A DNA stretch of 64,000 nucleotides from Blastococcus sp. CT_GayMR19. GTDB taxonomy: Bacteria; Actinomycetota; Actinomycetes; Mycobacteriales; Geodermatophilaceae. Location: assembly GCF_004570385.1 (NCBI RefSeq), contig NZ_SPQL01000002.1, forward strand, positions 310,001 through 374,000, given 5' to 3'. This document shows positions 18,469 to 41,501 of this stretch, in pieces. The translations under genes were made by a program, and so were the position numbers. Below the pieces are notes generated by a model. That model saw nothing but the letters and a program-made list of their open reading frames with translations. It was not told the DNA's origin and ran no database searches. Position 1 is the first letter of the stretch, and the number at the start of each line of letters is the position of its first letter.

Positions 18469-18523
18469 CCGCTTTCGGTACCGAGAGCGGGGCCCGCCGA
18501 CGTCGCTTTCGGTACCGAAAGCG
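18469..18523 (+). repeat. paired 20-bp palindromes, pair 1
   Basis: Two cores, cgctttcggtaccgagagcg (18470-18489) and cgctttcggtaccgaaagcg (18504-18523), are separated by exactly 14 bp. The second is a perfect palindrome centred on GGTACC; the first has one position that would be a G-U pair in RNA. The pair starts 8 bp after the dapD stop and lies before trpB2. Confidence 0.95.
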
Positions 18524-18605
18524 CCGCCTGAAGGTGGACGACGGCCCCTGGACCGGCACTAGGATCGCCCGCACTTCGGGGCGCGACGAGTCGAGGGAGA
18601 CGCCG

Positions 18606-19988
18606 GTGACCGGGGTCCGGAACCAGCAGCACAAGGTCCTGCTCGACGAATCGCAGATGCCGACGCAGTGGTACAACGTCGTGCCCGACCTGCCCAGCCC
18701 GCCGCCACCACCGCTGCACCCGGGCACCCTGCGGCCGGTCGGCCCGGACGACCTCGCGCCGCTGTTCCCCATGGACCTCATCGCCCAGGAGGTGACCACC
18801 GAGCGGTACGTGGACATCCCCGGCGAGGTCCTCGACGTCTACAAGCTCTGGCGGCCCTCCCCGCTGTACCGGGCGCACCGGCTGGAGAAGGCACTCGGGA
18901 CGCCCGCCCGGATCTACTACAAGTACGAGGGCGTCTCACCGGCCGGCTCGCACAAGCCGAACACCGCCGTCCCGCAGGCGTACTACAACGCCAAGGCCGG
19001 GGTGCGGAAGCTGACGACGGAGACCGGCGCCGGTCAGTGGGGCACCGCCCTGGCCTTCGCCGCCACGCTCTTCGGGCTCGAGTGCGAGGTCTGGCAGGTC
19101 GGCGCCTCCTACGACCAGAAGCCCTACCGGCGGATCATGATGGAGACCTACGGCGCCACCGTGCACCGCTCGCCGTCGGACCTCACCGCGGCCGGCCGGG
19201 CCATCCGCGCGGACAACCCCGATCACCCGGGCTCCCTCGGCATCGCCATCAGCGAGGCGGTGGAGGTCGCCGCCGCGGACCCGGAGACGCGCTACGCCCT
19301 CGGGAGCGTGCTCAACCACGTGCTGCTGCACCAGACGGTCATCGGCGAGGAGGCCCTGCTGCAGTTCGCCGCGATCGACGAGACTCCAGACCTGATCGTG
19401 GGGTGCACCGGCGGCGGCTCGAACTTCGGCGGGCTCACCTTCCCGTTCCTGCGCGAGAAGCTGGCCGGCCGGATCTCCCCGACGCTCCGGGCGGTCGAGC
19501 CGGCGTCCTGTCCCTCGCTCACCCGGGGCGTGTACGCCTACGACTTCGGCGACACCGCCGGCATGACCCCGCTGATGAAGATGCACACGCTGGGCCACCG
19601 GTTCATCCCCGACCCCATCCACGCCGGCGGCCTGCGCTACCACGGGATGTCCCCGCTGCTCTCGCACGTCTACGAGCTGGGCCTGATCGAGGCGATCGCG
19701 CTACCGCAGACCGAGTGCTTCGAGGCCGCGCTCCGGTTCGCCCGGACCGAGGGAATCGTGCCCGCCCCGGAGCCGACGCACGCCGTGGCCGCGTGCATCC
19801 GGGAGGCGCTGGCCTGCAAGGAGTCCGGTGAGGAGAAAGTGATCCTGACGGCACTGTGCGGGCACGGGCACTTCGACCTGGCCGCCTACGAGTCCTACCT
19901 CGCCGGCGCGATGGTGAACGAGGACGTGTCCGACGAGCGGTTCGCCGAGGCGCTCACCGACCTGCCGCAGGTGCCCGCCGGCGCCTGA
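18606..19988 (+). CDS. TrpB-like pyridoxal-phosphate enzyme (tryptophan synthase beta, TrpB2 type)
   Basis: A 460-residue fold-type II PLP enzyme. The PLP lysine is in [18 protein letters not shown], the glycine-rich phosphate loop in [16 protein letters not shown], and the TrpB2-specific long form is seen in [36 protein letters not shown] and [21 protein letters not shown]. TrpB2 proteins make tryptophan from indole and serine or salvage indole; no trpA, trpC or trpD lies nearby, as usual for TrpB2. GTG 18606 is chosen because GGGAGA lies seven nt upstream; an open extension to 18534 lacks a site and overlaps the repeats' downstream flank. Confidence 0.9.
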
Positions 19989-20026
19989 GCAGGGACCGCC
20001 TCGCACGTTCGCGGCGGGCCATCCAG

Positions 20027-20083
20027 CGCGCTTTCGGTACCGAAAGCGCGACCCCTCCGCCCCGCTCTCGGTACCGAAAGCGG
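20027..20083 (-). repeat. paired 20-bp palindromes, pair 2
   Basis: Cores at 20029-20048 (perfect, cgctttcggtaccgaaagcg) and 20063-20082 (cgctctcggtaccgaaagcg, one arm mismatch) with exactly 14 bp between. Read on the minus strand, the imperfect copy comes first and is identical to copy one of pair 1. The element sits between the convergent trpB2 and hydrolase genes and ends 2 bp before the hydrolase stop codon. Confidence 0.95.
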
Positions 20084-20084
20084 G

Positions 20085-21191
20085 TCAGGTGAGGTTGGCG
20101 GGCGCCTCGGCTGGGACGTCGAGGTGCTCCAGCAGGGCGACGGCGAACTCCTGCGGCCGTTCCACGTGCGGGGAGTGGCCGACGCCGGGCAGCACGACCT
20201 CCCGGTAGGCGCCCCCGGTGGCGGCGTAGCGGTCCAGCACCGCCCGCGTCTGGGTGACCATCGGCTGCGGCGGGCAGGTCTCCGCACCCGGCCAGCCCGG
20301 CACCGCACCGACGGACCCGAGGAAGGCGAGGTCGAACACCGAGGTGTCGGAGATGATCTGGTCGGCGTCGCCCCGGATCCAGAGCACCGGCGGCTTGACC
20401 GGCAGGTCCACGATGCCCGAGACGTCGAAGACGGTCGGCGCGAACGTGTTGAGCACCCCACGGCGCCCCGGGGCCGTGCCGGGCCAGGTCTCGACGGCGA
20501 CCGCGTCGCCCGGGTAGTGGTCGACGCCGGTGCGGGTGCTGTTCATGGACGCGACGAAGACGTCCTCGAGGTGGGGGTCGAGCGGCAGCGACCCGGGGGC
20601 CACGTAGAACGCGCGCAGGACCGACCGAGGGCTGGTCGGGCTGTCCGCGGTGGTGTCGCCGGCGGCCAGCGCCGCGACGAACTCCGGATTGGCCGCCCCG
20701 CCGCCGGAGCCCGCGCCGTCCTCGGACAGCGGCACGCCGTCGGGGCCGGCCGTCCCCCCGAATCCGTACGGCGAGACGGGCGCGACCAGCGCGACGGACG
20801 CGACCCGGTCGGGCGCATCCAGCAGGTACTGGAGGACGACGCCGCCGCCCATGCTCCAGCCGACCAGGTGGACCCGGTCCAGCCGGAGGACCTCGATCAG
20901 CGCGGCGAGGTCCTCGGCCCAGTCGCGCATCCCGCGCGTCGCGTCGATCGGGAGCGGGTCGGTGTCGCCGTAGCCGCGGAGGTCCACCGCGAGCGCCCGC
21001 ATCCGCCCGGTCTCCGCGAGGGCGAGAAGGGGCTGCTGCCAGAAGAGCGAGGAGCTCACGTTGCCGTGCACGAACAGCACGGCCTCCCCCGGGCCGGCGG
21101 GCTCGACGCCGTCCGCGTGCAGGACCTGCTGGGTCAGCCGTGGCGTCTCCACCCGCGTGGCGGCGATGCCGGGCAGCAGCAGTTCGGGCAT
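20085..21191 (-). CDS. alpha/beta hydrolase
   Basis: A 368-residue alpha/beta hydrolase. VLFVHGNVSSSLFWQQPL provides the oxyanion region, HLVGWSMGGGVVLQYLL the nucleophile elbow with serine near residue 123, LWIRGDADQIISDTS the acid, and LPGVGHSPHVERPQEFA the catalytic histidine. A cap-like insertion of about 100 residues with low-complexity glycine/serine sequence follows strand 6. Substrate unknown. Start ATG 21191 is chosen over 21227 since AGGAGA lies five nt upstream of it. The stop codon is immediately next to palindrome pair 2. Confidence 0.85.
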   Translation of the reverse strand: MPELLLPGIAATRVETPRLTQQVLHADGVEPAGPGEAVLFVHGNVSSSLFWQQPLLALAETGRMRALAVDLRGYGDTDPLPIDATRGMRDWAEDLAALIEVLRLDRVHLVGWSMGGGVVLQYLLDAPDRVASVALVAPVSPYGFGGTAGPDGVPLSEDGAGSGGGAANPEFVAALAAGDTTADSPTSPRSVLRAFYVAPGSLPLDPHLEDVFVASMNSTRTGVDHYPGDAVAVETWPGTAPGRRGVLNTFAPTVFDVSGIVDLPVKPPVLWIRGDADQIISDTSVFDLAFLGSVGAVPGWPGAETCPPQPMVTQTRAVLDRYAATGGAYREVVLPGVGHSPHVERPQEFAVALLEHLDVPAEAPANLT

Positions 21192-21305
21192 GTCGTCTCC
21201 TGGGCTCGGCCGACGGGGCCCGCACACGCTAAGCGACGGACGGCCCTCCGCGACAGCGCCCCGGACCCGCCGACGTGACCGCGGGCACCCCGGAACTGCC
21301 AGGAA

Positions 21306-21322
21306 CCCGACCTACAGTCGGG
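21306..21322 (+). promoter_or_regulatory. operator-like palindrome overlapping a leaderless promoter
   Basis: CCCGAC-N5-GTCGGG is a perfect 6-5-6 inverted repeat. TACAGT (21313-21318) inside it lies seven nt before the ATG at 21326 and fits the TANNNT -10. A repressor bound here would cover the promoter. Confidence 0.4.
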
Positions 21323-21325
21323 CCG

Positions 21326-21994
21326 ATGTCCAGCCCGCAGACCGCCGTGCACCCGTCGGGCACCCGTCGGTCCGCCTCGCGACGGCCGGTGCGGCGGCGG
21401 CGCCCGACGCGGGTGGCGGGTCGCCGTCGGTCCTCGACCACGGGGCCCCGGCGGCGGTCGCCAGCTCGGGCCAAGGGGAACTGGTGGTCCGTCGTCCTGG
21501 TCGCCGTGGCGGTCCTCGTTGCGGTGGCCTGGAGCAGGGACGATGGGCCCGAGTCGACCGTTCCGACCTGTCCCCTCCCGGGCTCGGCGATCACGATCAC
21601 GTCCGAGCAGGCCGGGAACGCGGCGGTCATCGCCGAGGTGGGCTGGGAGCGCGGTCTGCCCGACCGGGCCGTCGTCATCGCGCTGGCCACCGCCCAGCAG
21701 GAGTCGGGGCTGCGCAACATCGACTACGGCGACCGGGACTCGCTGGGCCTGTTCCAGCAGCGCCCCTCCCAGGGCTGGGGCACCGAGGCCCAGGTCACCG
21801 ACCCTGAGTACGCCGCCGGCATGTTCTTCGACCGGCTCGTCGGCGTCCCCGGCTGGGACAGCGGGCGGCTCACCGAGGTCGCCCAGGCCGTGCAGCGCAG
21901 CGGTTTCCCGGAGGCGTACCAGAAGCACGAGGCGATGGCGATCGATCTCACAGCTGCACTACGCGCCGGCGGCGGCGAACTCGCCTGCAGCTGA
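21326..21994 (+). CDS. membrane-anchored lysozyme-like protein
   Basis: A 222-residue protein. A very basic, disordered cytosolic segment (about residues 10-50, RRPVRRRRPTRVAGRRR) precedes one transmembrane helix (WWSVVLVAVAVLVAVAW). The extracytoplasmic part has VIALATAQQESGLRNIDYGDRDSLGLFQQRPSQGWG, a lysozyme-like/transglycosylase fold signature common in actinobacterial exported proteins, with Glu in QQESG as the likely general acid. Such proteins are often labelled only as hypothetical or heavy-metal transporter. It may act on peptidoglycan, but the second half of the active site cannot be confirmed. ATG 21326 is preferred to GTG 21275 because it follows a -10 box. Confidence 0.72.
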   Translation: MSSPQTAVHPSGTRRSASRRPVRRRRPTRVAGRRRSSTTGPRRRSPARAKGNWWSVVLVAVAVLVAVAWSRDDGPESTVPTCPLPGSAITITSEQAGNAAVIAEVGWERGLPDRAVVIALATAQQESGLRNIDYGDRDSLGLFQQRPSQGWGTEAQVTDPEYAAGMFFDRLVGVPGWDSGRLTEVAQAVQRSGFPEAYQKHEAMAIDLTAALRAGGGELACS

Positions 21995-22079
21995 TCGGGT
22001 TCGGGCCCGCGCCACTTTCGGGCGAGATTCCGGTTCCCCGAGTCTCGGTGATGCGAGATCCGCCCTAGCCTGGCCCCCG

Positions 22080-23504
22080 ATGTCCACCACGGGGGGTTCG
22101 GGCTCTCGTCAGCATCCCGCTGCGCTGGCCGGGTGGGTCGCCGGAATCGCTTCCGCGGCCACCGTGGCCGTCGTCGCGTTGCCCTTCGTCGGTTTCGCCT
22201 ACCGGGCACCGGCTCTGCACGTCGCGCTGGAGACGGCCAACGCCCTCATCGCCCTGCTGGTCGGCTACCTGGTGTACGGCCGGTACCAGCAGAGCCGGCG
22301 ACTGCAGGAACTCCTGCTGGTGCTCGCACTCGGAACGGTCGCGATCGCCAATCTGCTGCTGACGGCGCTCCCCACGGCGGTGACCATCGGGAGCGACGAC
22401 GAGTTCAGCCGGTGGGCGGCGGTCGCCATCCGCTTCCTCGGCACGGCCCTGCTGGCCACTGCAGCGCTCTCCCCGGTCGGTATCCGGCTCGATCAGCGGC
22501 GCGCGCGGGCCGTGATCCTGGCTCTCGGGGTAGTCGTGGTGGCCGTCGGAACGGCGGGCCTGGTCTGGGGTGGGGACCTTCCGCCCACCGTGGACCCCGC
22601 CGTCGAACTCGGCGACGCGACGCGGCCCCGGCTCGCGGCGCATCCCCTCGTGCTGGTCGCCCATGCCGTCGGCGTGCTGCTCTACTCCGTCGCGGCGGTC
22701 GCGTTCACCCGCCAGTCCGCACGACGCGGCGACGAACTCCTCCGCTGGGTCGGGGCCGCGTGCGTCCTCGCCGCCGTGGGCCGCGTGCACTACCTCCTCT
22801 TCCCCTCCCTGTACTCCGAGTACGTCTACACCGGGGACGTGCTGCGGCTGGGCTTCTACCTCCTGTTGCTGGTGGGTGCCGCCCGGGAGATCAAGTCGTA
22901 CTGGGAACTCAGGACCCGCACCGCGGTGCTGGAGGCCCGTCGGCGGATGGCACGTGATCTCCACGACGGCCTGGCTCAGGAGCTGGCGTTCCTGTGGAGC
23001 CAGTCCCGGGCCCTGGCCAGCGGTCCCCCGGACAGCGCAGCTGTCGAGCGCATCGGCGGGGCGGCTTCCCGGGCGCTCGACGAGGCTCGGCGGGCGATCG
23101 CCGCGTTGACCCGCCCGCTCGACGAGCCGTTCGCCCGCGTCCTGCAGCAGGTGGCCGACGACCTGGGCAGCCGGTACGACGTGAAGATCGTCGCGACGGT
23201 CGATCCGGAGGTGGAGGTCAGCGCTGAGCAGGGCGAAGCGCTCGTGCGGATCGCTGCCGAAGCCGTGCGCAACGCGGTGCGGCACGGAAAGGCCGAGCAG
23301 ATCGACCTCGTGCTCGCCGCGGATCCACTGTGCCTCTCCATCACCGACGACGGACGGGGCTTTGCCGGGACGCTGGGCGTCGCGGGGCCCGCCGGCGGGT
23401 TCGGCCTCACCAGCATGCGTGAACGCGCCCGGGGGATCGGCGCGGAGTTCTCCATCTCCTCCCGTCCGGGGGAAGGGACCACCGTGCTGGTGACCACGCG
23501 ATGA
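22080..23504 (+). CDS. sensor histidine kinase, HisKA_3 (NarL partner) type
   Basis: A 474-residue membrane kinase. The N-terminal half has seven or so hydrophobic segments (from WVAGIASAATVAVVALPFVGF to LRLGFYLLLLVGAAREI), a MASE-like integral sensor without a clear extracellular domain. The phosphoacceptor motif ARRRMARDLHDGLAQELAFLW lies near residue 295, and the ATPase domain shows EAVRNAVRHGKAEQI (N box), ITDDGRGFAG (G1) and GGFGLTSMRERARGIGA (G2). It should autophosphorylate on His and pass phosphate to the response regulator whose ATG overlaps its stop (ATGA). ATG follows TAGCCT by 8 nt, so probably leaderless. Signal unknown. Confidence 0.88.
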   Translation: MSTTGGSGSRQHPAALAGWVAGIASAATVAVVALPFVGFAYRAPALHVALETANALIALLVGYLVYGRYQQSRRLQELLLVLALGTVAIANLLLTALPTAVTIGSDDEFSRWAAVAIRFLGTALLATAALSPVGIRLDQRRARAVILALGVVVVAVGTAGLVWGGDLPPTVDPAVELGDATRPRLAAHPLVLVAHAVGVLLYSVAAVAFTRQSARRGDELLRWVGAACVLAAVGRVHYLLFPSLYSEYVYTGDVLRLGFYLLLLVGAAREIKSYWELRTRTAVLEARRRMARDLHDGLAQELAFLWSQSRALASGPPDSAAVERIGGAASRALDEARRAIAALTRPLDEPFARVLQQVADDLGSRYDVKIVATVDPEVEVSAEQGEALVRIAAEAVRNAVRHGKAEQIDLVLAADPLCLSITDDGRGFAGTLGVAGPAGGFGLTSMRERARGIGAEFSISSRPGEGTTVLVTTR

Positions 23505-24172
23505 CCGATGTCCTGCGCGTCGTCATCGCCGACGACCATCCGCCCACCCGCGTCGGGGTGCGCGAGGCACTGGAGAAGCAGTCCTGTGCCGTCGTGGCCG
23601 AGGCCGCAACGGCCGAGGAGGCGATCGCCGCCGCACGAGAGCACGCGCCCGATGTCTGCGTGCTCGACATCAACATGCCCGGCAGCGGGATCGCCGCGGC
23701 GGCCGAGATCACGCACACCATGCCCGACATCGCCGTGGTGATGCTCACCGCATCCCGCGATGACGAGGACCTCTTCGCCGCTCTCCGGGCAGGAGCGTCG
23801 GGCTACCTGCTCAAGGACATGGACCCGACCCGGATCGGTTCCGCTCTGCGCGGTGTCCTGGCCGGTGAGGCGGTCCTCCCCCGGTGGCTCGTCCTCAAGG
23901 TCGTGGAACAGCTCCGGGCCACCCCGCGGCGGCGGATCGCACTGCCGAATCGGAAGGCCACGGCGCAGCTGACCGAGCGCGAGGCCGAGATCCTGGACCT
24001 GATGGCGAACGGGCTCTCCACCGAGGACATCGCCGGCCGGCTCTTCGTCGCCCAGGTGACCGTGCGGAGTCACATCGCCGCGATCCTGCGCAAGCTCCGG
24101 GTCAAGGACAGGAACGCGGCCGTGCGGCTGGCGCAGGGCACCAGGGATTCACCGGACCTGCCGTCGCGTTGA
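23501..24172 (+). CDS. NarL/LuxR-family response regulator
   Basis: A 223-residue regulator. The receiver domain begins VLRVVIADDHPPTRVGV, with the phosphoacceptor Asp in DVCVLDINMPG near residue 54 and Thr/Lys switch residues in VMLTASRDDED and GYLLKDMDP. The C-terminal LuxR helix-turn-helix is LTEREAEILDLMANGLSTEDIAGRLFVAQVTVRSHIAAILRKL. It is coupled to the kinase gene by ATGA overlap. A GTTGAG-N4-CTCAAC palindrome lies 386 bp downstream, before the threonine-rich protein gene, which is a plausible target but untested. Confidence 0.9.
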   Translation: MTDVLRVVIADDHPPTRVGVREALEKQSCAVVAEAATAEEAIAAAREHAPDVCVLDINMPGSGIAAAAEITHTMPDIAVVMLTASRDDEDLFAALRAGASGYLLKDMDPTRIGSALRGVLAGEAVLPRWLVLKVVEQLRATPRRRIALPNRKATAQLTEREAEILDLMANGLSTEDIAGRLFVAQVTVRSHIAAILRKLRVKDRNAAVRLAQGTRDSPDLPSR

Positions 24173-24748
24173 GCAACCACCAGGGAGACGGTCACGGAGA
24201 ACAGAACCGCGACCACGCCGACCGACTGAAAGAGAACAAGAGCAGCAGCAGCGACCGGGAGCACGCCTACCCGACCCCGTGACCTGTCGGCCCTCGGGCC
24301 CGGAGTCCCGAGACCTCGCTCGAGCAGCCCGTCGCCCTCGCGGCGGCGGGCTGCCCGCTCGTTCACCGGCGCCGTCCGCCCCCGGCCGGTCGTCATCCCC
24401 GTGCAGCCGATCGCCGGCCGCCGTGGACGGCTCACCGCATGAACCTCAGGAACGCAGACGGCGCCGGACGACAGTGCCGCAGCCCGCGCGCCGGGGGCGC
24501 AGTCAGGCAGACGTCCGCCCGGCCAGGGGCCGTTCCGAACGACTGCGATCCGGAACCGTTGAGGAATCTCAACGCCGAGCAGCCCCTTTCACCCATTGTG
24601 GGCGACGGATTGCAGGTCGTAAGGTCCGTCCGTCAGACCGTGACGCACTGATCCGGGGCCTCCATCTGGTCGCTTGGGCCCCGGGGAGCGAGTAGCGAAA
24701 CCGCGCGGTGAAGGGCTCGCTTGCGAGCTCACCACGGGGAGTCTTTTC
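24173..24748. other. 576-bp intergenic region with operator-like palindrome and hairpin
   Basis: No convincing gene; short frames here have unbiased third positions. A perfect inverted repeat GTTGAG-GAAT-CTCAAC lies at 24558-24573, and a CCGGGGCC/GGCCCCGG stem at about 24652-24683 is followed by a second stem (GCTCGC/GCGAGC) close to the next gene's ribosome-binding site. The region is probably the promoter and structured leader of the threonine-rich protein gene. Confidence 0.45.
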
Positions 24749-26452
24749 ATGCGCACTCGCACTCGTTCGCGCGCCCTACCGGCGCCCCTGACGGCCACGG
24801 GTTCCGCCTCGCGGACCGGACGGGCCATCCGGCGTTCGCTGGTCGTCGGCGCCTCCTCCGGGGTGCTCCTGCTGGTCGCCGCCGTGACGCCCGCGTCCGC
24901 CGATCACAACATCACGCACACCCGGCAGCAGATCTGCACGGCGGCCGGAGGGACCTTCTCCGGGCCGGGTACCACCACCCCCAACACGTCCCAGCAGGAC
25001 AACCAGCGGTGCACCGTCACCACGACCGCCGACGGGCCGGCAGTGCCCTCCGGCAGCCCGCAGACCACCGACGGACCGGCGTCCCCGTCCGGCTCGTCCA
25101 CCAGCGTGGACTCGCCGCCCGTTCCCGAGGGAGCACCGACCGACTCCGTCGAGACGGTCGACAAGGGGGAGCCCGTCGTCGTCGTCACCGATGAGCGCGG
25201 CACGCCCCGGATCGAGACGGACGAGCGGAACAGCGGCGACCCGACCGCCACCTCCGAGACGGTGAACAAGGGCACGCCGACGGTCACGCGGGAGACCGTG
25301 AACAGCGGCGAGGCCGTCGTGACGTCGCAGACGGTCAACAACGGCACCCCGACGTTCTCCTCCGAGACGAACGACGTGGGAGAGCCCACCAGCACCTCCG
25401 AGACCGTGAACGACGGCGCGCCGGTCATCACCACCGAGACCCGGCGCGGCACTCCTACGACCACCCGCGCGGCGGGCCCGCCGGTGAACTGCCAGTCGGC
25501 CGGCAAGAGCAGCAAGGTCCAGAAGTGCGAGCGCTCGGAGATCACGACCACGACCACACCGACCACGGTCGTCACCACCGTCACCCAGCCCCGGCAGACG
25601 GTCACGACGACCACACAGCGGCGTGAGACGACGACGACCACGACCCAGCAGCGGGAGACCGTCACCACGACGACACAGCCCCGGGTGATCGTGGTCACGA
25701 CCACCCAGCCCCGCGAGCGGGTGACGACCACGACCCAGCCGCGGGAGACCGTCACCACGACGAGCACCGACGTCACGCCGATCACCACGAGCACTCAGCA
25801 GCGCGAGACGGTCACCACGACCACGCAGCCCACGACCGTGCTCACGACGACGACGCAGCCCACGACGTTCGAGCGGACCGTCACGCAGCAGACGACGATC
25901 ACGACGACCACGACCACGGCCGTGTTCTCCTTCAGCCGGCCCGGCAACGCGCTCGTGCCCGTCGGCTCCCCGACGAACAGCACGAGCACTCGCCCGGGCG
26001 ACCCGATCGTCACGACGACGACGCTTCCGGGCGAGCCGGTCGTCACCACCAGCACCGCCGCCGGGACGCCCGTGGTGACCGAGGTGCGGACGCCGGCCGA
26101 CCCGGTCATCACCATCACGCGTGGGGAGACCACGACGGAGGCGATCGTCGTGGTCACCCCCGCCGAGCCGGTCGTGACCGTCACCCGTGAGGACGTCGCG
26201 GACGAGGTGACCGTCGTGGAGCTCCCCACCGAGCCGGAGGTCACGACCAGCCGGGAGGCTGCCGACTCCGTCGTCACCACGGCCACCACGCCGGCGGACC
26301 CCGACGTGAGCATCACCCGGGAGGCGGCCGAGCCCGTCGTCACCAGCACGCCGGCGCCGGGCGCGCCGATCGTGACCAGCACCACCCGGTCCACCGGACA
26401 GAAGTGCGTCAAGAACCCCAGCACCGCCCAGGAGCGCGCGAACGCCTGCTGA
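24749..26452 (+). CDS. secreted threonine-rich repetitive protein
   Basis: A 567-residue protein with signal peptide (RRSLVVGASSGVLLLVAAVTPASA, cleavage near residue 51). The mature part has four zones: a cysteine-containing start (QQICTAAGGTFSGPG, RCTVTTT); repeats of SETVN-x-GTPT type; a long tract of TQPRETVTTT-like repeats made almost only of Thr, Val, Gln, Arg and Glu; and a tail of repeats such as PADPVITITRE and AEPVVTVTRED. It ends in KCVKNPSTAQERANAC. Six cysteines flank the repeat zones. The composition is mucin-like and suggests an O-glycosylated cell-wall or extracellular filament. No known domain. GGGGAG upstream of the ATG. A strong terminator follows. Confidence 0.75.
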   Translation: MRTRTRSRALPAPLTATGSASRTGRAIRRSLVVGASSGVLLLVAAVTPASADHNITHTRQQICTAAGGTFSGPGTTTPNTSQQDNQRCTVTTTADGPAVPSGSPQTTDGPASPSGSSTSVDSPPVPEGAPTDSVETVDKGEPVVVVTDERGTPRIETDERNSGDPTATSETVNKGTPTVTRETVNSGEAVVTSQTVNNGTPTFSSETNDVGEPTSTSETVNDGAPVITTETRRGTPTTTRAAGPPVNCQSAGKSSKVQKCERSEITTTTTPTTVVTTVTQPRQTVTTTTQRRETTTTTTQQRETVTTTTQPRVIVVTTTQPRERVTTTTQPRETVTTTSTDVTPITTSTQQRETVTTTTQPTTVLTTTTQPTTFERTVTQQTTITTTTTTAVFSFSRPGNALVPVGSPTNSTSTRPGDPIVTTTTLPGEPVVTTSTAAGTPVVTEVRTPADPVITITRGETTTEAIVVVTPAEPVVTVTREDVADEVTVVELPTEPEVTTSREAADSVVTTATTPADPDVSITREAAEPVVTSTPAPGAPIVTSTTRSTGQKCVKNPSTAQERANAC

Positions 26453-26464
26453 TCGGCTCCGTCC

Positions 26465-26504
26465 CGACGATGCCCCGACCGCCCAGGCGGCCGGGGCATC
26501 GTCG
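26465..26504 (+). terminator. strong stem-loop terminator after the threonine-rich protein gene
   Basis: CGACGATGCCCCG (26465-26477) pairs perfectly over 13 bp with CGGGGCATCGTCG (26492-26504), 12 bp after the stop codon, followed by TTCCT. Part of the right arm (GGGCATCGTCGTTC) is repeated directly downstream. Confidence 0.8.
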
Positions 26505-27173: not shown

Positions 27174-27177
27174 CGGC

Positions 27178-33810: not shown

Positions 33811-33841
33811 GGAAGTGATCTTCCCCTACGGGGGGACGGCT

Positions 33842-33988
33842 CTGTCGCGCCGAGTGGCGGCCCGGAGGGTCTCGGCCATGACACTGCGATCCTCCGGCTC
33901 GCACCGCGGCCAGGAGCCGTCCCCCTGTCATGCGGAGCGGCTGCGTCGCGCCTGCGCGGAGCCCTCCGGGCTCCACTCGGCGCGACAG
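33842..33988. repeat. 147-bp long inverted repeat (MITE-like or large terminator)
   Basis: The outer arms ctgtcgcgccgagtgg (33842-33857) and ccactcggcgcgacag (33973-33988) are perfect 16-bp complements. After a 2-3 nt bulge the pairing continues as CCCGGAGGG (33861-33869) with CCCTCCGGG (33962-33970). Further inside, ATGACA and TGTCAT can also pair. The element lies 15 bp after the oppF stop and 31 bp before the mshB start. It may terminate the opp operon or be a non-autonomous mobile element; I see no flanking duplication. Confidence 0.8.
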
Positions 33989-34003
33989 AACAGGCTGGCT
34001 CCC

Positions 34004-35089
34004 CTATTCGGCTTCCACCGGGACGACCTGGCGCGCCTCGGCGAAGTGGCAGGCGGCGGGGTGACCCTGGCCGCGGTCGATCAGCGCGGGGATCTCGACG
34101 GCGCAGACGTCCTGCGCCTTCCAGCACCGCGTGCGGAACCGGCAGCCCGAGGGCGGGTTCGCGGGGCTGGGCACGTCGCCCTGCAGGAGGATCCGGTCCT
34201 TCTGCCCCCGCAGCGCCGGCTCGTGGAGGGGAACGGAGGACAGCAGCGCCTGGGTGTAGGGGTGGGACGGTGCGCCGTACACCTCGTCGTCGGTGCCCTC
34301 CTCGACGACGCGGCCGAGGTACATGACAGCCACGCGGTCGGAGATGTGGCGGACCACGGACAGGTCGTGGGCGATGAAGAGGTAGGAGAGGCCGAAGTCG
34401 TCCTGCAGGTCCTCGAGCAGGTTGACCACCTGCGCCTGGACCGAGACGTCGAGCGCCGACACCGGCTCGTCGCAGATGATGATCTCCGGCTGGAGTGCGA
34501 GCGCCCGTGCTATGCCGATGCGCTGGCGCTGGCCACCGGAGAACTGGTGCGGGTACCGGTTGACGAAGTCGGGGTTGAGCCCGACCCGGTCCATCAGCTC
34601 CTGGGTGCGCTTGAGCCGTCCCTTGCGCGGGGCGATGTCGGCGTGCACCGACCAGCCCTCCGCGACGATGTCGCCGACGGTCATCCGCGGGTTCAGCGAG
34701 GCGTACGGGTCCTGGAAGATGATCTGGACCTCGCGGCGGTACTGCTTGAGCGCGCGGCCGCCCATCTTCGCGACGTCCCGGCCCTTGTAGAGGATCGATC
34801 CGTCGGTGGGCTTCTCCAGCGCCACCAGCAACTTCGAGACGGTGGACTTCCCGCACCCGGACTCGCCCACCAGGCCGAGGGTCTCGCCGCGGCGCAGGGT
34901 CAGGTCCACGCCGTCCACGGCCTGGACGTGACCGACGGTGCGCCGGAAGACGATTCCCTGCGTGAGCGGGAAGTGCTTCTTCAGGCCCCGGATCTCCAGC
35001 AGCGGCTCGCCGGGCGGGGGCGCCGGCGGCAGGGCGGAGCCGACGTCCGAGGCCTCGGACGCCGCGGTGGCTCCGGTGAACTCAGACAC
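34004..35089 (-). CDS. peptide ABC transporter ATP-binding protein, OppF type
   Basis: A 361-residue ATPase. Walker [19 protein letters not shown]-loop [17 protein letters not shown], signature [18 protein letters not shown], Walker [20 protein letters not shown] and switch HDLSVVRH are all present. The C-terminal oligopeptide-transporter extension ([22 protein letters not shown]) has cysteines that ligate an iron-sulfur cluster in related DppD/OppD proteins. It forms the nucleotide-binding dimer with the OppD-type subunit. GTG 35089 overlaps the OppD stop by 8 bp. Last gene of the operon. Confidence 0.9.
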
Positions 35090-36134
35090 CGAGCACCTCC
35101 TCGCTGTAGTGGCACGCTGCCTCGCGGCCGGGGACGACCAGGCGCAGCGGCGGGCGGTCGACGGCGCAGTCCCGACCAGGCAGCGCCGCTGCGCCGAGCC
35201 GGCGCCGCGCGCAGCGCGGGTGGAAGGGGCAGCCGGAGGGGATCTTCGCCAGGTTCGGTGGCTGGCCGGTGATCGGCTGGAGCCGACCACCCTTCACCTC
35301 GACCTGCGGCACGGACTTCATCAAGCCCTCGGTGTACGGGTGCGCCGGCCGGGTGAAGACGTCGTCGACGGTGCCCCGCTCGACGATCCGGCCCGCGTAC
35401 ATGACCGCCACGTTGTCGGCCACCTCGTTGACGACGCCGAGGTCGTGGGTGATGAGCACCAGGCCCATCCCGGTCTCCCGCTGCAGGTCCTTGAGCAGGT
35501 CCATCACCTGCGCCTGGACGGTCACGTCGAGGGCCGTCGTGGGCTCGTCGGCGATGAGGATCTTCGGGTCGAGCGCGATCGCCATCGCGATCATCACGCG
35601 CTGCCGCATACCGCCGGAGAACTGGTGGGGGTAGTCGTTCACCCGCTGCGCGGCCGCCGGGATCCGCACCCGGTCCATGAGCTCGGCGGCCAGGCGCTTG
35701 GCCTCCTTGCGGGAGGTCCCCCGGTGCGCGCGGAACATCTCACCGATCTGGAATCCGACGCTGTACACGGGGTTCAGGGAGGACAGCGCGTCCTGGAAGA
35801 TCATCGAGATGCCGGGACCGCGGATCCGGCGCCGGTCCTCGTCGGACATCGCCAGCATGTTCCTGCCCTCGAACAGGATCCCCCCGCCGCCGATCACGGC
35901 CGGCGGCGTGTCGAGGATGCCCATGATCGCCTGCGCCGTGACGGACTTGCCCGATCCGGACTCGCCCAGGATGGCCAGGGTCTCGCCGTGGGAGACGGTG
36001 TAGCTGACGCCGTTGACGGCGTTGACGACGTTCTCCCGGGTGCGGAACTCGACGTGCAGGTCGTCGACGTGCAGCACCGGGGCGCCGGCCACGGCGGTGG
36101 ACTCGGGGTAGGACGAGAGATCAGGTGCGGTCAC
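35082..36134 (-). CDS. peptide ABC transporter ATP-binding protein, OppD type
   Basis: A 350-residue ATPase with Walker [19 protein letters not shown]-loop [17 protein letters not shown], signature [18 protein letters not shown], Walker [20 protein letters not shown] and the C-terminal peptide-transporter domain ([12 protein letters not shown] ... [10 protein letters not shown]). The CSD block is complete enough for cluster binding as in OppD. GTG 36134 overlaps the stop of the permease upstream (GTGA). Confidence 0.9.
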
Positions 36135-37081
36135 GAGCGCTGCCTCGGGTCGAGAGCGTCGCGCAGGGCGTCGCCCATCATGATGAAGGCCATCACGGTC
36201 AGGGTCAGGATGATGCTGGGGAAGAACACCAGGTGCGGGGCCGTCCGGAGCAGGGACTGGCCCGCGTCGATCTGCAGGCCCCAGGAGATGGCCGGGCGCT
36301 GCAGTCCCACGCCGAGGAACGTCAGCGTCGCCTCGGCAGCGATGAGCACTCCGACGGTGATGGTCGCGTAGACCAGCACCGGCGCCACGGCGTTCGGGAG
36401 GATGTGCCGGACGAGGATGCGCCCGTTCGACGCCCCCATCGCCCGGGCGGCCGCGACGTAGTCCGAGCTCTTCACCGCGATCACCTGGGAGCGGACCAGG
36501 CGCATCGCGGTCATCCAGCCGAACGCAGCGAGCGCGATCGCCACCGCCACGACGCCGCGGCCGAGGCTGCCGGTCCGCAGGATCACCAGCGCACCCAGTA
36601 CCAGCGGCAGCGCGTAGAAGATGTCGGTGACCCGGGACAGCAGGCTGTCGATGACGCCCCCGAAGAAGCCGGAGACGGCGCCCACGATGACGCCCAGCAC
36701 GAGGATGACCAGCACGGCCAGCGCACCGATGATGAGCGAGTTCCGTGCGCCGAAGACCACGTTGGCCAGGTAGTCGCAGCCCTGCTGGTCGAAGCCGAAC
36801 CAGTGCTCGCCCGACGGCTTCTGCTTGCTGTTGGCAAGGTTGCAGGCCCGCGGATCCGCTCCTCGCGCGAAGACGCTCGGGAACGTCGCCATCAGCAGGA
36901 AGAGGACGCCGAGGACGGCGCCGATCCAGAACAGCCGGTTCCGCTTGAGGTCGCGCCACGCGTCGCTCCACAGGCTGTTCTGCCGGGCGTCGGTGACGTC
37001 CACCGAGGGCGCCGCGAGGCCGGTCGTCGTCCCGGCCTCGACCTCGTCATGGCGTCGGTCGGCCTGCTGCTGGTCAGTCAT
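36131..37081 (-). CDS. peptide ABC transporter permease, OppC type
   Basis: A 316-residue permease with an N-terminal OppC-like helix (NRLFWIGAVLGVLFLLMATFP), a periplasmic loop containing SGEHWFGFDQQGCDYLANVVFGARNSL (the usual LGTDxxGRD region, here with Cys) and the EAA loop VAAARAMGASNGRILVRHILPNA that docks onto the ATPases. About six membrane helices. The ATG overlaps the OppB gene by 8 bp. Confidence 0.9.
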   Translation of the reverse strand: MTDQQQADRRHDEVEAGTTTGLAAPSVDVTDARQNSLWSDAWRDLKRNRLFWIGAVLGVLFLLMATFPSVFARGADPRACNLANSKQKPSGEHWFGFDQQGCDYLANVVFGARNSLIIGALAVLVILVLGVIVGAVSGFFGGVIDSLLSRVTDIFYALPLVLGALVILRTGSLGRGVVAVAIALAAFGWMTAMRLVRSQVIAVKSSDYVAAARAMGASNGRILVRHILPNAVAPVLVYATITVGVLIAAEATLTFLGVGLQRPAISWGLQIDAGQSLLRTAPHLVFFPSIILTLTVMAFIMMGDALRDALDPRQRS

Positions 37082-37997
37082 AGCGGATCCTCGGGTCGAG
37101 GACGGCGTAGAGCACGTCCACGACCAGGTTGAAGAAGATGAAGAAGAAGACCATCAGCGTGACGATGCCGACGACGACGGCACCCTCCTGCTGGCGCACG
37201 GAGTCGAAGATCGCCCGGCCGACCCCGGGCAGGTTGAAGACCGACTCGGTGACGATCGCGCCGCCCATCAGGTTGCCGATGTCGGCGCCGATGAAGGTGA
37301 CCACCGGGATGAGGCTGTTGCGCAGCGTGTGCCGCACGACGACGGTGCGGTTCGGCAGACCCTTCGCCCTCGCCGTCCGGACGTAGTCCGCGCGCATGTT
37401 CTCGGCCACGGAGGTGCGGGTCAGGCGGGCGACGTAGGCCAGCGAGCCGGAGGCGAGCACCAGGCCCGGCAGCAGGAAGCTGTACCACCCCTCACCGAGC
37501 CCCGAGATCGGGAACAGGCCCAGCTGCAGCCCGAAGACGTACTGCGCGACGAAGGCGAGCACCAGGATCGGGATGGACACGATGAGGGTGCTCGACACGA
37601 GCACGAGGTTGTCGAGGAAGCCGTTGCGCCGGATCCCGGCGAGGACGCCGGCGATGATCCCGATGACGGCCTCGAACAGGATGGCGACCAGGGTGAGCTG
37701 CGCCGTGACCGGCAGGCGCTGACTGATCGTGTCGATCACCTGGCGGCCACGGAAGTCGGTGCCCAGGTCGCCCTGCAGCAGGTTGCCGACGTACTTCCCG
37801 TACTGCACGACCAGCGGGTCGTTGAGGTTGTACTGGGCCCGCAGCTCGGCCACCACCCCGGGCGACAGCGGGCGATCTCCGCCCAGGGCCCGGATCGGGT
37901 CGCCGGGGAGTGCGTAGACCATCGCGAAGATGAGGAACGAAGCGCCGATCATGACCGGGATGGCGAGCAGCAGGCGGCGCGCTACGTAGCGGCCCAT
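37074..37997 (-). CDS. peptide ABC transporter permease, OppB type
   Basis: A 307-residue permease. The N terminus MGRYVARRLLLAIPVMIGAS and FAMVYALPGDPIRAL are typical of OppB/DppB, as are YVRTARAKGLPNRTVVVRHTLRNSL (EAA loop) and the final DVLYAVLDPRIRYD. Six membrane helices. ATG 37997 has a GAGGGGG site. It follows the substrate-binding protein gene by 141 bp, with a long stem-loop in the gap. Confidence 0.9.
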   Translation of the reverse strand: MGRYVARRLLLAIPVMIGASFLIFAMVYALPGDPIRALGGDRPLSPGVVAELRAQYNLNDPLVVQYGKYVGNLLQGDLGTDFRGRQVIDTISQRLPVTAQLTLVAILFEAVIGIIAGVLAGIRRNGFLDNLVLVSSTLIVSIPILVLAFVAQYVFGLQLGLFPISGLGEGWYSFLLPGLVLASGSLAYVARLTRTSVAENMRADYVRTARAKGLPNRTVVVRHTLRNSLIPVVTFIGADIGNLMGGAIVTESVFNLPGVGRAIFDSVRQQEGAVVVGIVTLMVFFFIFFNLVVDVLYAVLDPRIRYD

Positions 37998-38071
37998 GTC
38001 CCCCCTCGGGTGTGTGCGCCGGCCTTGTGGGCCGACGCCGGTTCCATCGTGCCCGGTGCGGGGCACGCGTG

Positions 38072-38114
38072 CCGCCGGGGGCGACCGTCCTGGTAAGGAC
38101 GGCGCCCCCGGCGG
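38072..38114 (-). terminator. intercistronic stem-loop between binding protein and permease genes
   Basis: CCGCCGGGGGCG (38072-38083) pairs with CGCCCCCGGCGG (38103-38114), with an inner CCGTCC/GGACGG stem. It lies 25 bp after the binding-protein stop. A partial terminator or mRNA-stabilising hairpin here would give more binding protein than permease, as in many peptide transporters. Confidence 0.7.
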
Positions 38115-38138
38115 TGTGGTGCGGGTGCTGCTAGTGCG

Positions 38139-39800
38139 TCAGCCGACGACCCGGACGGCCGCGGCGTCGATGCGACCGAAGGCGTCGATGATCACGTTCT
38201 CGACGTTCTCCGAGTGTGCCCCCTGGTTCAGGCGGTAGAACAGCGGGGCCGAGGGGAAGTCCTCGAGGAGGATGTCCTCCGCTGCCTGGTAGGCCGCGAT
38301 GGCGTCCTCGTCGTTCGAGGCCGAGTTGCCCTCCACGAGCAGCGCGTCGAACTCCGGGTTGCTGTAGAAGGTGTAGTTCGACCCGGCCGGCGGGAGCGCG
38401 GCGGAGGAGTACAGCGGGCCGAGGAAGTTCTCGGCCACCGGGTAGTCCATGACCCACGCGTCGCGGAACGGACCGGTCATGCCCTTGGCGTCCTTGAGGG
38501 GCAGGAACTCGGACTGCTGCAGATCGCCGCGGAGCTGGAACTCCACGTCCAGGTTCTCGCGGATCTGGTTGCCGACCGCCTCCATCCAGCCCTCGTGGCC
38601 GGCACCGGCGTTGAACCAGAGGTCCACCGGCTGGCTGCGGTCGAAGCCGGCCTCGTCGAGCAGGCTGTTGGCCTCCTCCACGTTGAGCTCGCACACCTCG
38701 CAGGCGTCGTCGCGGTGACCCTTGACGACCGGGCTGATGAACGACGTCGCCGGGGTGCGGGTGCCGTTGAAGATGGCGTCGCTGATCGCCTGCCGGTCGA
38801 TCGCCATCGAGAACGCCTTGCGCACGTTCGGGTCGGCGAACCGCTGGTCGTAGGTCGGGAAGCCGAGCGAGGTGATGTCACCCTGCGCCGTCTCGATGTA
38901 GCGGTCACCGAACTCGTCGGGCGCCGAGGCGATGGCGTCCGGCGGCAGCGTGTCCATGATGTCGACCTGACCGCCCTGCAGGTCGGTGTAGGCGGTCTCC
39001 TGCTCGGCGTAGACCACGTACTTGACCGAGTCGGCGTTGGCCGGCTCGTCGCCGGCGTACTCCTCGTACTTGGTCAGCGTGATGCCCTCGTCGGGAACGA
39101 AGGGCTCGTCCGCCTGGAAGGGGCCGTTGCCGATCGGCTGCTCGCCGAAGCCCTCGGGGTCCGCGAAGAAGGCCTCGGGCAGCGGGAAGAACGCGGTGTA
39201 CCCGACGGTGGTCGGCCACTGGGCGTACGGGGAGGTCAGTTCGACCTCGAAGGTGAGGTCGTCGACGACCCGCAGGCCGCTCATCTGCTCGGCGACCGGC
39301 GGCGCGATGACGACGTCGTTGTCGTCGGTCTCCGCCTGCAGGTCGCCGTAGCCGGCCACGTTGGCGAAGAAGTAGGAGTTGCCCTGCGCGTTCGGGCTGT
39401 ACGCCGTGTAGTTCCAGGCGTCGACGAACGACTGCGCGGTGACGTCGGTGCCGTCGTGGAAGGTCCAGCCCTCGTTGAGGGTGACGGTCCAGGTCTGCTT
39501 GTCGTCGGACTCGATCGACGCGGCCACGCCGCTGAAGACGGCCTCGTTGGTCTCGGCGTCGTACTGGACGAGACCGGTGAACAGCGAGTCGAGGACCTGC
39601 CCACCCTCGGTCTCGTTCGTGTTGCCCGGGACCAGCGGGTTCTCCGGCTGGCCGATGTACATGCTGAACGTGCCACCGGCCTGTTCGGCGGCTTCGCCCT
39701 CGCCGCTCCCCTCCTCGTCGCTGCCGCCACAGGCGGTCATCAGCAGTGCGGCGGCGACGGCCGTCGCGACGAGCGAACTGTTGCGCTTGCTGAACTTCAC
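38139..39800 (-). CDS. peptide ABC transporter substrate-binding lipoprotein
   Basis: A 553-residue family 5 (OppA/DppA) solute-binding protein. GTG 39800, preceded by GGGAGG, gives the signal sequence KFSKRNSSLVATAVAAALLMTACGGS with lipobox MTAC; an acidic linker (DEEGSGEGEAAEQ) follows. The body contains VLDSLFTGLVQYD, GWTFHDGTDVTAQSFVDAWNY and RKAFSMAIDRQAISDAIFNG, family-5 signatures. It should capture peptides at the cell surface and deliver them to the OppBCDF complex encoded downstream. First gene of the operon. Confidence 0.92.
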   Translation of the reverse strand: MKFSKRNSSLVATAVAAALLMTACGGSDEEGSGEGEAAEQAGGTFSMYIGQPENPLVPGNTNETEGGQVLDSLFTGLVQYDAETNEAVFSGVAASIESDDKQTWTVTLNEGWTFHDGTDVTAQSFVDAWNYTAYSPNAQGNSYFFANVAGYGDLQAETDDNDVVIAPPVAEQMSGLRVVDDLTFEVELTSPYAQWPTTVGYTAFFPLPEAFFADPEGFGEQPIGNGPFQADEPFVPDEGITLTKYEEYAGDEPANADSVKYVVYAEQETAYTDLQGGQVDIMDTLPPDAIASAPDEFGDRYIETAQGDITSLGFPTYDQRFADPNVRKAFSMAIDRQAISDAIFNGTRTPATSFISPVVKGHRDDACEVCELNVEEANSLLDEAGFDRSQPVDLWFNAGAGHEGWMEAVGNQIRENLDVEFQLRGDLQQSEFLPLKDAKGMTGPFRDAWVMDYPVAENFLGPLYSSAALPPAGSNYTFYSNPEFDALLVEGNSASNDEDAIAAYQAAEDILLEDFPSAPLFYRLNQGAHSENVENVIIDAFGRIDAAAVRVVG

Positions 39801-40110
39801 GTGCAAGGCCTCCCTCAACCCGCGTTCGCGGGGGGAACGGACAGGTCGATCCGCGCCCATGACAGGGCTGGCGGACGACTGATTGGTCACGATCTGAGCG
39901 CACCGGGAAGACAGCCGTCTCCCTGCTACGACGAGTGGACCCTAGGCACCCTGCCGGAGGGGTGTCCAACCTCGTCATCGAGTTGTGACCTGCACCAGCG
40001 CCATCTGTGATCAGGCGCAACTTCGTCCCCACCTGGCCCCGCAGAACCGCCGTCTTTCCGCTGTTGAGCCGAAACCGCCGGATGGTTTCCGGTGGGGTGG
40101 ATGAGGCGCG
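39801..40110. other. divergent regulatory region between binding-protein and csbD genes
   Basis: No gene is supported. The binding-protein start has a ribosome-binding site; the side towards it holds a CCCGCGAACGCGGG inverted repeat at about 39819-39832 within the leader. Local base composition is less G/C-rich than the flanking genes. Confidence 0.4.
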
Positions 40111-40136
40111 TGTCAATCGGTGATCTTCCGGGTATG
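40111..40136 (+). promoter_or_regulatory. sigma-B-like promoter of csbD
   Basis: GTGTCA (40111-40116), 14-nt spacer, GGGTAT (40131-40136). The -10 is an exact sigma-B consensus and the spacer is canonical. Transcription would begin about 35 nt before the csbD ATG. CsbD is a sigma-B-controlled protein in Bacillus. Confidence 0.65.
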
Positions 40137-40177
40137 GGCGCTCAGCACACGTCACCGTCAGCAGAGGAGAGCGCCAC

Positions 40178-40348
40178 ATGAGCGGCATCGACAAGATGAA
40201 GAACAAGGCCGAGGAGCTCTCCGGCAAGGGCAAGGAAGCCGTCGGCGACGCCACGGGCGACCGCGACCTGCAGGCCGAGGGCCAGGCGGACCAGGCCTCG
40301 GGCAACATCAAGCAGGCCGGCGAGAAGATCAAGGACGTCTTCAAGTAG
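40178..40348 (+). CDS. CsbD family stress-response protein
   Basis: A 56-residue hydrophilic protein starting MSGIDKMKNKAEELSGKGKE and ending GNIKQAGEKIKDVFK; the middle has AVGDATGDRDLQAEGQADQ. This is the complete CsbD-like pattern, a small helical protein of unknown mechanism induced by general stress. AGGAGA lies eight nt before the ATG. The sigma-B-like promoter upstream fits. Palindrome pair 3 lies 70 bp downstream. Confidence 0.93.
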   Translation: MSGIDKMKNKAEELSGKGKEAVGDATGDRDLQAEGQADQASGNIKQAGEKIKDVFK

Positions 40349-40418
40349 GCCGCTCCGTCCTCGACCACGACGGACGCCGCTCCCCCGGGACGGCGTCCGT
40401 CGTCGCGTCCGGGACCTT

Positions 40419-40476
40419 CCCGCTTTCGGTACCGAAAGCGGGAGCCGCCGTCGCCGCTTCCGGTACCGAAAGCGGG
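40419..40476 (-). repeat. paired 20-bp palindromes, pair 3
   Basis: Cores at 40421-40440 (perfect) and 40455-40474 (cgcttccggtaccgaaagcg, one mismatch that is a G-U pair in minus-strand RNA), again 14 bp apart. Located between convergent csbD and the DUF559 gene, ending directly against the latter's stop codon. Confidence 0.95.
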
Positions 40477-41370
40477 TCAGCCGGCCAGGAAGGGCAGTCC
40501 GAGCTCGCGGGCGATCCGCGCGACGACCGCATCCAGGTCGCGGAGGTCAGGGCCGCTGAGCCGGATGACTCGCCATCCCGCCGCGATCAGGCGGTCGTAG
40601 CGTCGATCGTCCCGGCGGATCTGCAGATCGTCGAAGTGGTAGGCACCCTCGTACTCGACGACGAGGCGGCTCTCGGGCCAGGCGAGGTCGACGCGGCCCA
40701 GGAACTGACCGGCCTCCTGGACGTCGTACTGCGGCACCGGCGCAGGCAGTCCCGCCCGGGCGCACGCGACCCGGACCCACGACTCGGGCGGACTCTCGCT
40801 GCGCCCGTCGACGAGAGGGAGCACCTTCGCCACCCGCCGTGACCCCCACCGTCCCTTCGTGGATTCGACGAGACGGCCCAGAGCAGGGGCGCTGAGGTGG
40901 CCGGCACGCACCATGCCGTCGAGCAGGGCGACGGCCGTGGCCATCGGTTCGATCGCGCAGATCTCCCACGCTGTCCGCAGCGGCGTCGTCAATCGGACCG
41001 CGCCGCCGTCGTCCTCCATGACCACCGTTTCGGACCGAGCCACGTGCCTCCGGTGGACGCGCACACCCCTGGGACCGCGCCAGGCGGTGTCAGGAGGGAC
41101 CACCGCGAGAACAGGCTCGGTCGGTCCCGCGAACGGAGCACCGAACCAGGCGGCGGCTGATCTGCCCCCGAGCACGGCAGTCGCCGGCATCACCAGCAGC
41201 GCTCCTCGCGCATACAGCCGATGGTCAGCCGGGAGCCGCGGATCGGCGTAGACGTTGTGGAGGAGGCGCCGGTACAGACCCGACTGCAGTTGATGCCGGG
41301 TGACCGCACCCTCCGCAACGGCGTGAGAGCCGACGAAGACGCCATGAAGTCCCCGCCTCGATGAGTTCAC
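40477..41370 (-). CDS. DUF559/VSR-like endonuclease-domain protein with AbiEi-like N terminus
   Basis: A 297-residue protein. The N-terminal part (AVAEGAVTRHQLQSGLYRRLLHNVYAD, then ARGALLVMPATAVLGGRSAAAWFG) resembles the winged-helix/AbiEi-like segment seen in many actinobacterial DUF559 proteins. The C terminus is the PD-(D/E)XK-like DUF559 domain: PQYDVQEAGQFLGRVDLAWPESRLVVEYEGAYHF, RRDDRRYDRLIAAGWRVIRLSG, with Asp and Glu-x-Glu in place of the D...ExK set. Function unproven; nuclease activity is inferred from fold. GTG start without a strong ribosome-binding site. Flanked on both sides by palindrome pairs. Confidence 0.78.
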   Translation of the reverse strand: MNSSRRGLHGVFVGSHAVAEGAVTRHQLQSGLYRRLLHNVYADPRLPADHRLYARGALLVMPATAVLGGRSAAAWFGAPFAGPTEPVLAVVPPDTAWRGPRGVRVHRRHVARSETVVMEDDGGAVRLTTPLRTAWEICAIEPMATAVALLDGMVRAGHLSAPALGRLVESTKGRWGSRRVAKVLPLVDGRSESPPESWVRVACARAGLPAPVPQYDVQEAGQFLGRVDLAWPESRLVVEYEGAYHFDDLQIRRDDRRYDRLIAAGWRVIRLSGPDLRDLDAVVARIARELGLPFLAG

Positions 41371-41443
41371 GCCGCAAGGGTGGGGCACGGCCGGCCTCGG
41401 CCCGGGCCGCTGTCCACAGGCCCGCACCGTCGGACGCCCCTCC

Positions 41444-41501
41444 CCCGCTTTCGGTACCGAGAGCGGGCGCCTCAGCCCGCGCTTTCGGTACCGAAAGCGG
41501 G
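41444..41501 (+). repeat. paired 20-bp palindromes, pair 4
   Basis: Cores at 41446-41465 (cgctttcggtaccgagagcg, G-U compatible) and 41480-41499 (perfect), 14 bp apart. Same orientation and order as pair 1. It lies 9 bp from the stop codon of the NUDIX fusion gene and 73 bp upstream of the DUF559 gene start. Confidence 0.95.

Follow-up and report, generated by a model that had tools for sequence, protein, structure and literature searches.

Which factor keeps short palindromes in pairs, at one fixed distance, just beyond the stop codons of different genes? This question is raised by a stretch of 64,000 nucleotides from strain CT_GayMR19 (Geodermatophilaceae; contig NZ_SPQL01000002.1, positions 310,001 to 374,000), hereafter called the window at this full length, in which a preliminary description made from the letters alone had pointed to eight copies of a 20-bp palindrome arranged in four pairs. 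Following these palindromes through the whole genome and across 112 genomes of the family, we found a strong link between the palindrome pairs and a gene lying between the third and the fourth pair of the window, whose product combines an AbiEi-like domain with a DUF559 nuclease-like domain. We consider it probable, on sequence comparison, that the pairs are double-stranded DNA sites of this AbiEi/DUF559 protein and we suggest, more speculatively, that its nuclease helps to keep and perhaps spread them.

Palindrome pairs beyond stop codons

All eight copies were recovered where they had been described, four of them perfect and four with one mismatch, and the two members of every pair lie exactly 34 bp apart; the palindrome found no match in 100 shuffles. 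The nearest facing stop codon lies 8, 2, 2 and 11 bp from pairs 1, 2, 3 and 4 respectively, in line with the earlier claim of a distance of about 10 bp. The pairs and the gene enclosed by the last two are the following (the pairs carry no strand):

18470..18523: pair 1, 20-bp palindromes 18470-18489 and 18504-18523 with a 14-bp spacer, 8 bp past the stop of a dapD-like gene
20029..20082: pair 2, palindromes 20029-20048 and 20063-20082, with the stop of an alpha/beta hydrolase gene (minus strand) 2 bp away
40421..40474: pair 3, palindromes 40421-40440 and 40455-40474, 2 bp beyond the stop of the AbiEi/DUF559 gene
40477 to about 41350, minus strand: AbiEi/DUF559 gene (homology runs to 41376), with an AbiEi-like N-terminal domain and a DUF559/Vsr-like nuclease domain
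41446..41499: pair 4, palindromes 41446-41465 and 41480-41499, 11 bp beyond the stop of a NUDIX gene

The genome to which the window belongs (4.57 Mb; G000 below) holds 107 copies of the palindrome at up to three mismatches, and a looser pattern search returned 47 pairs. For the detailed set, stretches were fetched round the listed copies, up to four mismatches were allowed and genes were called with a home-made codon-usage caller, giving 106 copies in 55 groups (45 pairs, three triples and seven singles). Among the 51 spacings between neighbours, 45 measure 34 bp, three 35 bp, two 33 bp and one 28 bp, and 4 of the 55 groups fall inside called genes, so that the genome presents neither the many spacings nor the single copies scattered in genes that the preliminary description had named as telling against a dedicated paired element. 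Gaps of at least 58 bp that bear a group number 46, and in 39 of these no more than 14 bp separate the start of the group from a facing stop, where random placement would yield a mean of 20 in the same gaps and of 5 over all gaps. Divergent gaps hold a group in 2 cases out of 58, against 44 out of 188 for the others, and convergent gaps of at least 58 bp in 16 out of 36, some convergent gaps containing little else. Paired palindromes standing just past the stops of about fifty genes are a real, genome-wide pattern, confirmed here, and G000 displays in this respect a trait of repetitive extragenic palindromic (REP) elements, namely many short extragenic palindromes placed mostly downstream of genes.

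Finer regularities of the window did not extend to the genome. One perfect and one imperfect copy per pair, as in the four window pairs, corresponds genome-wide to 17 of the 45 two-copy arrays (0 and 1 mismatches), and the rule that the imperfect copy comes first when its mismatch is read as G-U was followed by 9 of 13 testable pairs, which is within chance.

Between pairs 1 and 2 sits a PALP gene (window 18534-20028). In relatives where both ends can be placed, the dapD and hydrolase genes adjoin, separated by one pair (G010) or by other sequence. The sole Rfam match of the window, a c-di-GMP-II-GAG riboswitch at 24632-24714 (plus strand, 49 bits), lies away from the pairs.

The AbiEi/DUF559 gene and the palindromes of its relatives

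The product of the gene between pairs 3 and 4 matches Pfam DUF559 and, with its N-terminal half, AbiEi. Among 30 members of the protein family, DUF559 matches all 30, one PADLOC AbiEi model 29 (best E 2.8e-12) and Pfam AbiEi_1 nine, weakly. Residues E198, D230, E241, H247 and D256 are invariant in 30/30, and the attribution of E198, D230, H247 and D256 to an EDxHD motif is our own assignment. By profile, the closest solved relative of the nuclease part is 3r3p, annotated as 'mobile intron protein' (E 5.5e-4), which we take to be I-Bth0305I. Searching the family with the protein returned homologs in 112/112 genomes, with close ones in few of them among the matches listed. In the window, the neighbours of the gene are the NUDIX gene and a short gene, presumably CsbD-like; no toxin gene was recognised there, no search having been aimed at DUF1814.

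Past the stop codon, most of the 30 best homologs show palindromes, which differ between lineages (GGCGCC-, TGCACC-, CCGCGG-, GTGCAC-, TATCGCGATA-types and others). In 23 of 35 homologs of at least 54% identity, the palindrome found past the stop recurs upstream of the same gene, sometimes as a single copy and, in the window, as a pair (pair 4), thereby reproducing a trait of AbiEi regulators, tandem inverted repeats upstream of their own gene; pair 4 is a possible operator. Among 15 more distant paralogs, one reached this flank score, and among 57 window genes one did so, namely the PALP gene enclosed by pairs 1 and 2. A pass meant 14 of 16 bases or better, a cut-off chosen after the scores were known, and the 20 paralog places were picked by hand among the matches listed. 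Flanking palindromes also accompany the gene away from the NUDIX locus, and paralogs bear palindromes of their own (L285 in G010, L300 and L301 in G108).

The association was submitted to a prediction fixed before the search: four Blastococcus genomes (G105, G108, G104 and G100) in which the palindrome CTTTTCCGCGGAAAAG adjoins the gene were expected to hold it in many copies, and other genomes rarely. The prediction held, with 36 copies in G105, 16 in G100, 10 in G104, 7 in G108, 4 in G102 and none in the other 107 of the 112 genomes searched (hypergeometric p 8e-7). At the 15 loci fetched, a facing stop is found 2-14 bp away from 18 of the 20 groups, and the spacings measure 23 bp (14 cases) or 24 bp (8 cases), counts in which one G102 site was entered twice through two overlapping loci. 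Pairs of CTTTC-N6-GAAAG palindromes, present in 14/112 family genomes and spanning four genera, gave a weaker test: the seven genomes with such palindromes beside the gene are all among these 14 (p 9e-8), the pattern having been derived from carriers and pairs at the gene itself being counted.

Palindrome and protein also changed together. Over 29 homologs, palindrome similarity correlated with protein identity, both when the two homologs compared belong to different genera (r 0.44, p 0.0002) and across the full set of pairs with permutation restricted to within genera (r 0.57, p 0.0002); the palindrome cores entered in these correlations were typed by hand and some represent a choice among variants. 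The genes of two Blastococcus genomes (G040, G098) cluster with the window's type, and that of G015, from the window's genus, with Blastococcus genes of the GTGCAC type. Nine relatives from the genus that lack a whole gene at the NUDIX locus (G002, G003, G006, G007, G009 and G011-G014) have no CTTTC pairs; G006 and G011 possess a homolog elsewhere, with another palindrome, and G014 retains a gene remnant with one palindrome relic near it. As in REP/RAYT systems, though with a different enzyme, the gene is flanked by palindromes that co-vary with it, exceptions being G106, G109 and G102.

Strict pairs of the window's form occur in 0 of 97 relatives, and we think that each genome holds a fairly homogeneous palindrome 'dialect'. 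G010, from the window's genus, contains 53 near copies, most of those listed being of type CGCTTTCGGTACAGAAAGCG, with the same period as G000 (20 of 23 spacings of 34 bp). At the NUDIX gene end, two copies of GGACTTTCGGCGCCGAAAGTCC form a pair with period 34 in G008, and a single such copy is present in G004, which has a pair at the other end of the gene. An orthologous element was found in the fetched G010 stretches for 13 of the 55 G000 groups (12 different G010 elements), and in seven aligned elements the palindromes are nearly intact, the spacers diverge more and spacer length is constant within 1 bp. Among 40 groups from five other genomes, 30 have a facing stop at a distance of 1-16 bp, and the spacings measure 32-35 bp in 49 of 51 cases; the remaining groups include some without a near facing stop or inside called genes.

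Several further observations concern the arrangement of the palindromes. Runs of four in G010 (L183:4447-4568) and of three in G109 (L209:1822-1907) have identical spacers, with periods of 34 and 33 respectively, suggesting tandem duplication of the unit. A second palindrome family of G010, TGATCAGGTGACCTGATCA, forms two pairs 63 bp apart (L198:1611-1692 and L200:663-744), one of which stands where G000 carries its own pair; it amounts to 4 copies in 241 kb of G010 and to none in the stretches of G000, G141 and G137. A phage origin of the palindromes was rejected, since the three viral contigs matching CTTTC-N6-GAAAG pairs hold AT-rich, chance-like matches. A recurring distance of 1 kb between pairs had first suggested a mobile module made of a DUF559 gene between two pairs; this was abandoned because the enclosed genes differ, being DUF559 in four cases (G000, G010, G098 and G040, all at the NUDIX locus) and a glycosyltransferase family 9 gene or a hydrolase in others.

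Other sequences surround the homologs. Of 50 homologs, counting distant paralogs, 48 have a TGTGGACGAC-like motif (up to two mismatches) in the 160 bp upstream, against 12 of 57 window genes; the motif lies about 40-90 bp upstream of the homologs, at about 41409-41418 in the window, and presumably resembles an actinobacterial DnaA box read backwards. Distant DUF559 paralogs (40-44%) L293, L294 and L296 have TCACC..GGTGATCA hairpins directly past the stop, looser in L291 and L304, which are perhaps another palindrome class.

Protein-bound DNA, RNA hairpins or mobile elements as possible explanations

The preliminary description had left open a two-site binding protein, a folded RNA or a REP-like element with its own mobiliser. 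Across genomes, spacings cluster at 33-35 and at 23-24 bp, with a distance of about 45 bp between two palindromes upstream of L300, so that the spacing classes are steps of about one DNA turn. The 23-24 bp class, about one helical turn shorter than 34 bp, points to a protein on double-stranded DNA; fixed spacing and one-turn steps support the suggestion of a two-site binding protein, and we consider it likely that the AbiEi/DUF559 protein is the one that binds the pairs.

Bidirectional terminators or mRNA 3'-end hairpins, that is, palindromes folding as RNA whose sequence would be common only because copies spread, offer a rather unlikely explanation, although the position just past stops, the groups in 16/36 convergent gaps, some holding little else, and the covariation of the arms at position 1 (G000 and G010) and position 5 (TF02A-30, which is G106) would all suit them. 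Whenever a transition affects an A-T pair, one strand shows G-U and the other A-C, which means that such a mismatch can always be read as G-U; in one-directional G000 loci the mRNA strand shows 15 G-U mismatches versus 27 A-C, counts that bear no sign of RNA constraint. The two arms of the G000 palindrome change independently of each other at positions 5 and 6, and position 8 is unpaired in 45 of 46 G010 copies, where independent halves would give about 21 pairing copies. The mixed covariation weakens the case for RNA and does not close it; together with the mismatch counts and the 23-24 bp spacing class, it leads us not to favour a folded RNA. Terminators also give no reason for spacing in steps of about a DNA turn, nor for tracking a DNA-binding nuclease gene.

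A plain regulon, in which sites of an AbiEi-type regulator arose singly at gene ends for host benefit, with no copying and no role for the nuclease, is a possibility to which we give clearly less weight than to the favoured reading. According to the accessible part of PMC7319586, the tandem 23-bp repeats bound by AbiEi and by Rv2827c stand at distances of 26 and 36 bp; the orthologous elements shared by G000 and G010, and the fact that no movement of pairs was seen, agree with such a regulon. Against it, the sites observed stand at gene ends and seldom in divergent promoter gaps, and acidic and His residues of the nuclease domain are invariant in 30/30 homologs. It also has to account for a common asymmetry: 44 of 46 G010 copies combine one G half with one T or C half at position 8, which copying explains more easily than independent origin. 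Where orientation could be read, 14 of 15 G010 pairs are inverted (seven forward-reverse, seven reverse-forward, one reverse-reverse), five pairs being unreadable, and the run of four is direct.

Elements of the REP type, mobilised by a REP-associated tyrosine transposase (RAYT), would resemble the palindromes in size, copy number, gene-end location and species-specific families, but this origin is very improbable and already contradicted: the Y1_Tnp family (PF01797), the only one among HUH families to be looked for, matched in 0 of 112 family genomes and in 5 of 14 control genomes. Recombination sites bounding gene cassettes are a weak rival that we judge improbable. Neighbours changed between G000 and G010 at 8 of 15 pair junctions versus 7 of 36 other gene-end junctions (p 0.02), and where G010 has a single pair it lacks the PALP gene that G000 carries between pairs 1 and 2; the neighbour change is suggestive only, the sample being small, the junction classes unmatched for gap length and 7 of the 15 pair junctions intact. 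Of the 'REP/BIME-like element with its own mobiliser' (BIME, bacterial interspersed mosaic element), the dedicated partner thus stood, a nuclease-like AbiEi/DUF559 protein encoded inside the interval first noted, whereas no RAYT accompanies it and movement is speculative.

As the favoured reading would have it, the AbiEi-like N-terminal domain reads one palindrome, and the two palindromes would be occupied jointly at a fixed helical phase, 34 bp in G000 and 23-24 bp in some relatives. The pair upstream of the AbiEi/DUF559 gene would probably act as operator, in the manner of AbiEi systems; some fifty other sites stand just beyond the stop codons of other genes, where an effect on transcription ends is possible. 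More speculatively, the Vsr-like domain may nick or break DNA near the site, repair then copying the palindrome from elsewhere; such nuclease-driven upkeep would produce a homogeneous dialect in each genome and let sites decay once the gene is lost. Spreading of the pairs by the nuclease is a speculative, minority reading.

Several points weigh against the favoured reading as a whole. Twelve of the 35 homologs fail the flank score, and the eight of these judged positive by eye were not judged blind. G109 has 22 exact pairs of the CTTTC dialect, yet no homolog above 41% among the matches listed; G106 has 11 pairs of this dialect, but its close homolog has a different palindrome; G102 carries 4 CCGCGG copies alongside a GTGCAC-type gene; and in G008 the single exact pair found is the one adjoining its gene. 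In a 400-kb sample of G141, three loci of its own dialect (period 24) lie 3, 17 and 57 bp from facing stops, and in a like sample of G137 its own type is scarce and some sites are of the G141 type. No clean insertion of the element into an empty site was found in the comparisons of G000 and relative loci. The single-sequence structure model of the protein reached a mean predicted local distance difference test score of 44.7 and was not used, and binding is what we infer from the observed sites, their spacing and gene-end position, flanking, co-occurrence and co-variation with the protein tree.

Related systems and biological meaning

REPs are, in the accessible text of two papers (PMC2817692, PMC3733652), short, species-specific palindromes that number from tens to hundreds and lie mostly downstream of genes, and the RAYT gene is flanked by REPs that co-vary and co-occur with it. 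The palindromes described here share the many gene-end copies, the species specificity and a dedicated enzyme gene that they flank, co-vary with and co-occur with. They differ by their partner, nuclease-like AbiEi/DUF559 instead of a tyrosine transposase, and by narrow spacing classes about one DNA turn apart. The system works like REP/RAYT but is no member of it, because the defining transposase was tested for and not found. The CGTC class, large among REP repeats, is reported without a dedicated transposase in the part of PMC3733652 available.

AbiEi of S. agalactiae and Rv2827c of M. tuberculosis act, as far as the accessible part of PMC7319586 describes them, on 23-bp repeats in tandem, separated by 3 and 13 bp. 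The AbiEi-like DNA-binding domain, the tandem inverted repeats upstream of its own gene and gaps that differ by 10 bp between AbiEi and Rv2827c bring that operator close to the present pairs. Here, by contrast, a C-terminal nuclease-like domain replaces the antitoxin domain, about fifty extra sites stand at the ends of other genes, and no toxin gene was recognised beside the gene. I-Bth0305I, an EDxHD enzyme, is presented in the available portion of PMC3943268 as forming a dimer on almost 60 bp of target, to be compared with the 54 bp of a pair and with the related nuclease domain; the gene studied here was not seen in an intron or intein, its putative targets are many and cutting is speculative. 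VsrA of Caulobacter shares the DUF559 nuclease domain, whereas neither an AbiEi-like domain nor a palindrome family is described for it in the accessible part of PMC12907096. A survey of the literature on DUF559, AbiEi, Vsr, RAYT and Geodermatophilaceae palindromes, covering titles and abstract openings with most subscription papers outside its scope, returned no description of the system.

It is tempting, if doubtful, to see in AbiEi-Vsr nucleases a second, independently evolved lifestyle of the REP-RAYT kind, made of site-specific drives at gene ends with a dialect and a helical spacing for each lineage. Proteins joining DUF559 to an AbiEi-like domain, a widespread but little-studied type, are now tied to a palindrome family of their own by a prediction across 112 genomes. 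This provides a likely DNA target for proteins known only as DUF559, with a simple rule by which the target can be read off the sequence just past the stop codon; it also offers protein-site pairs as a natural series in which specificity and one-turn spacing changes can be studied.

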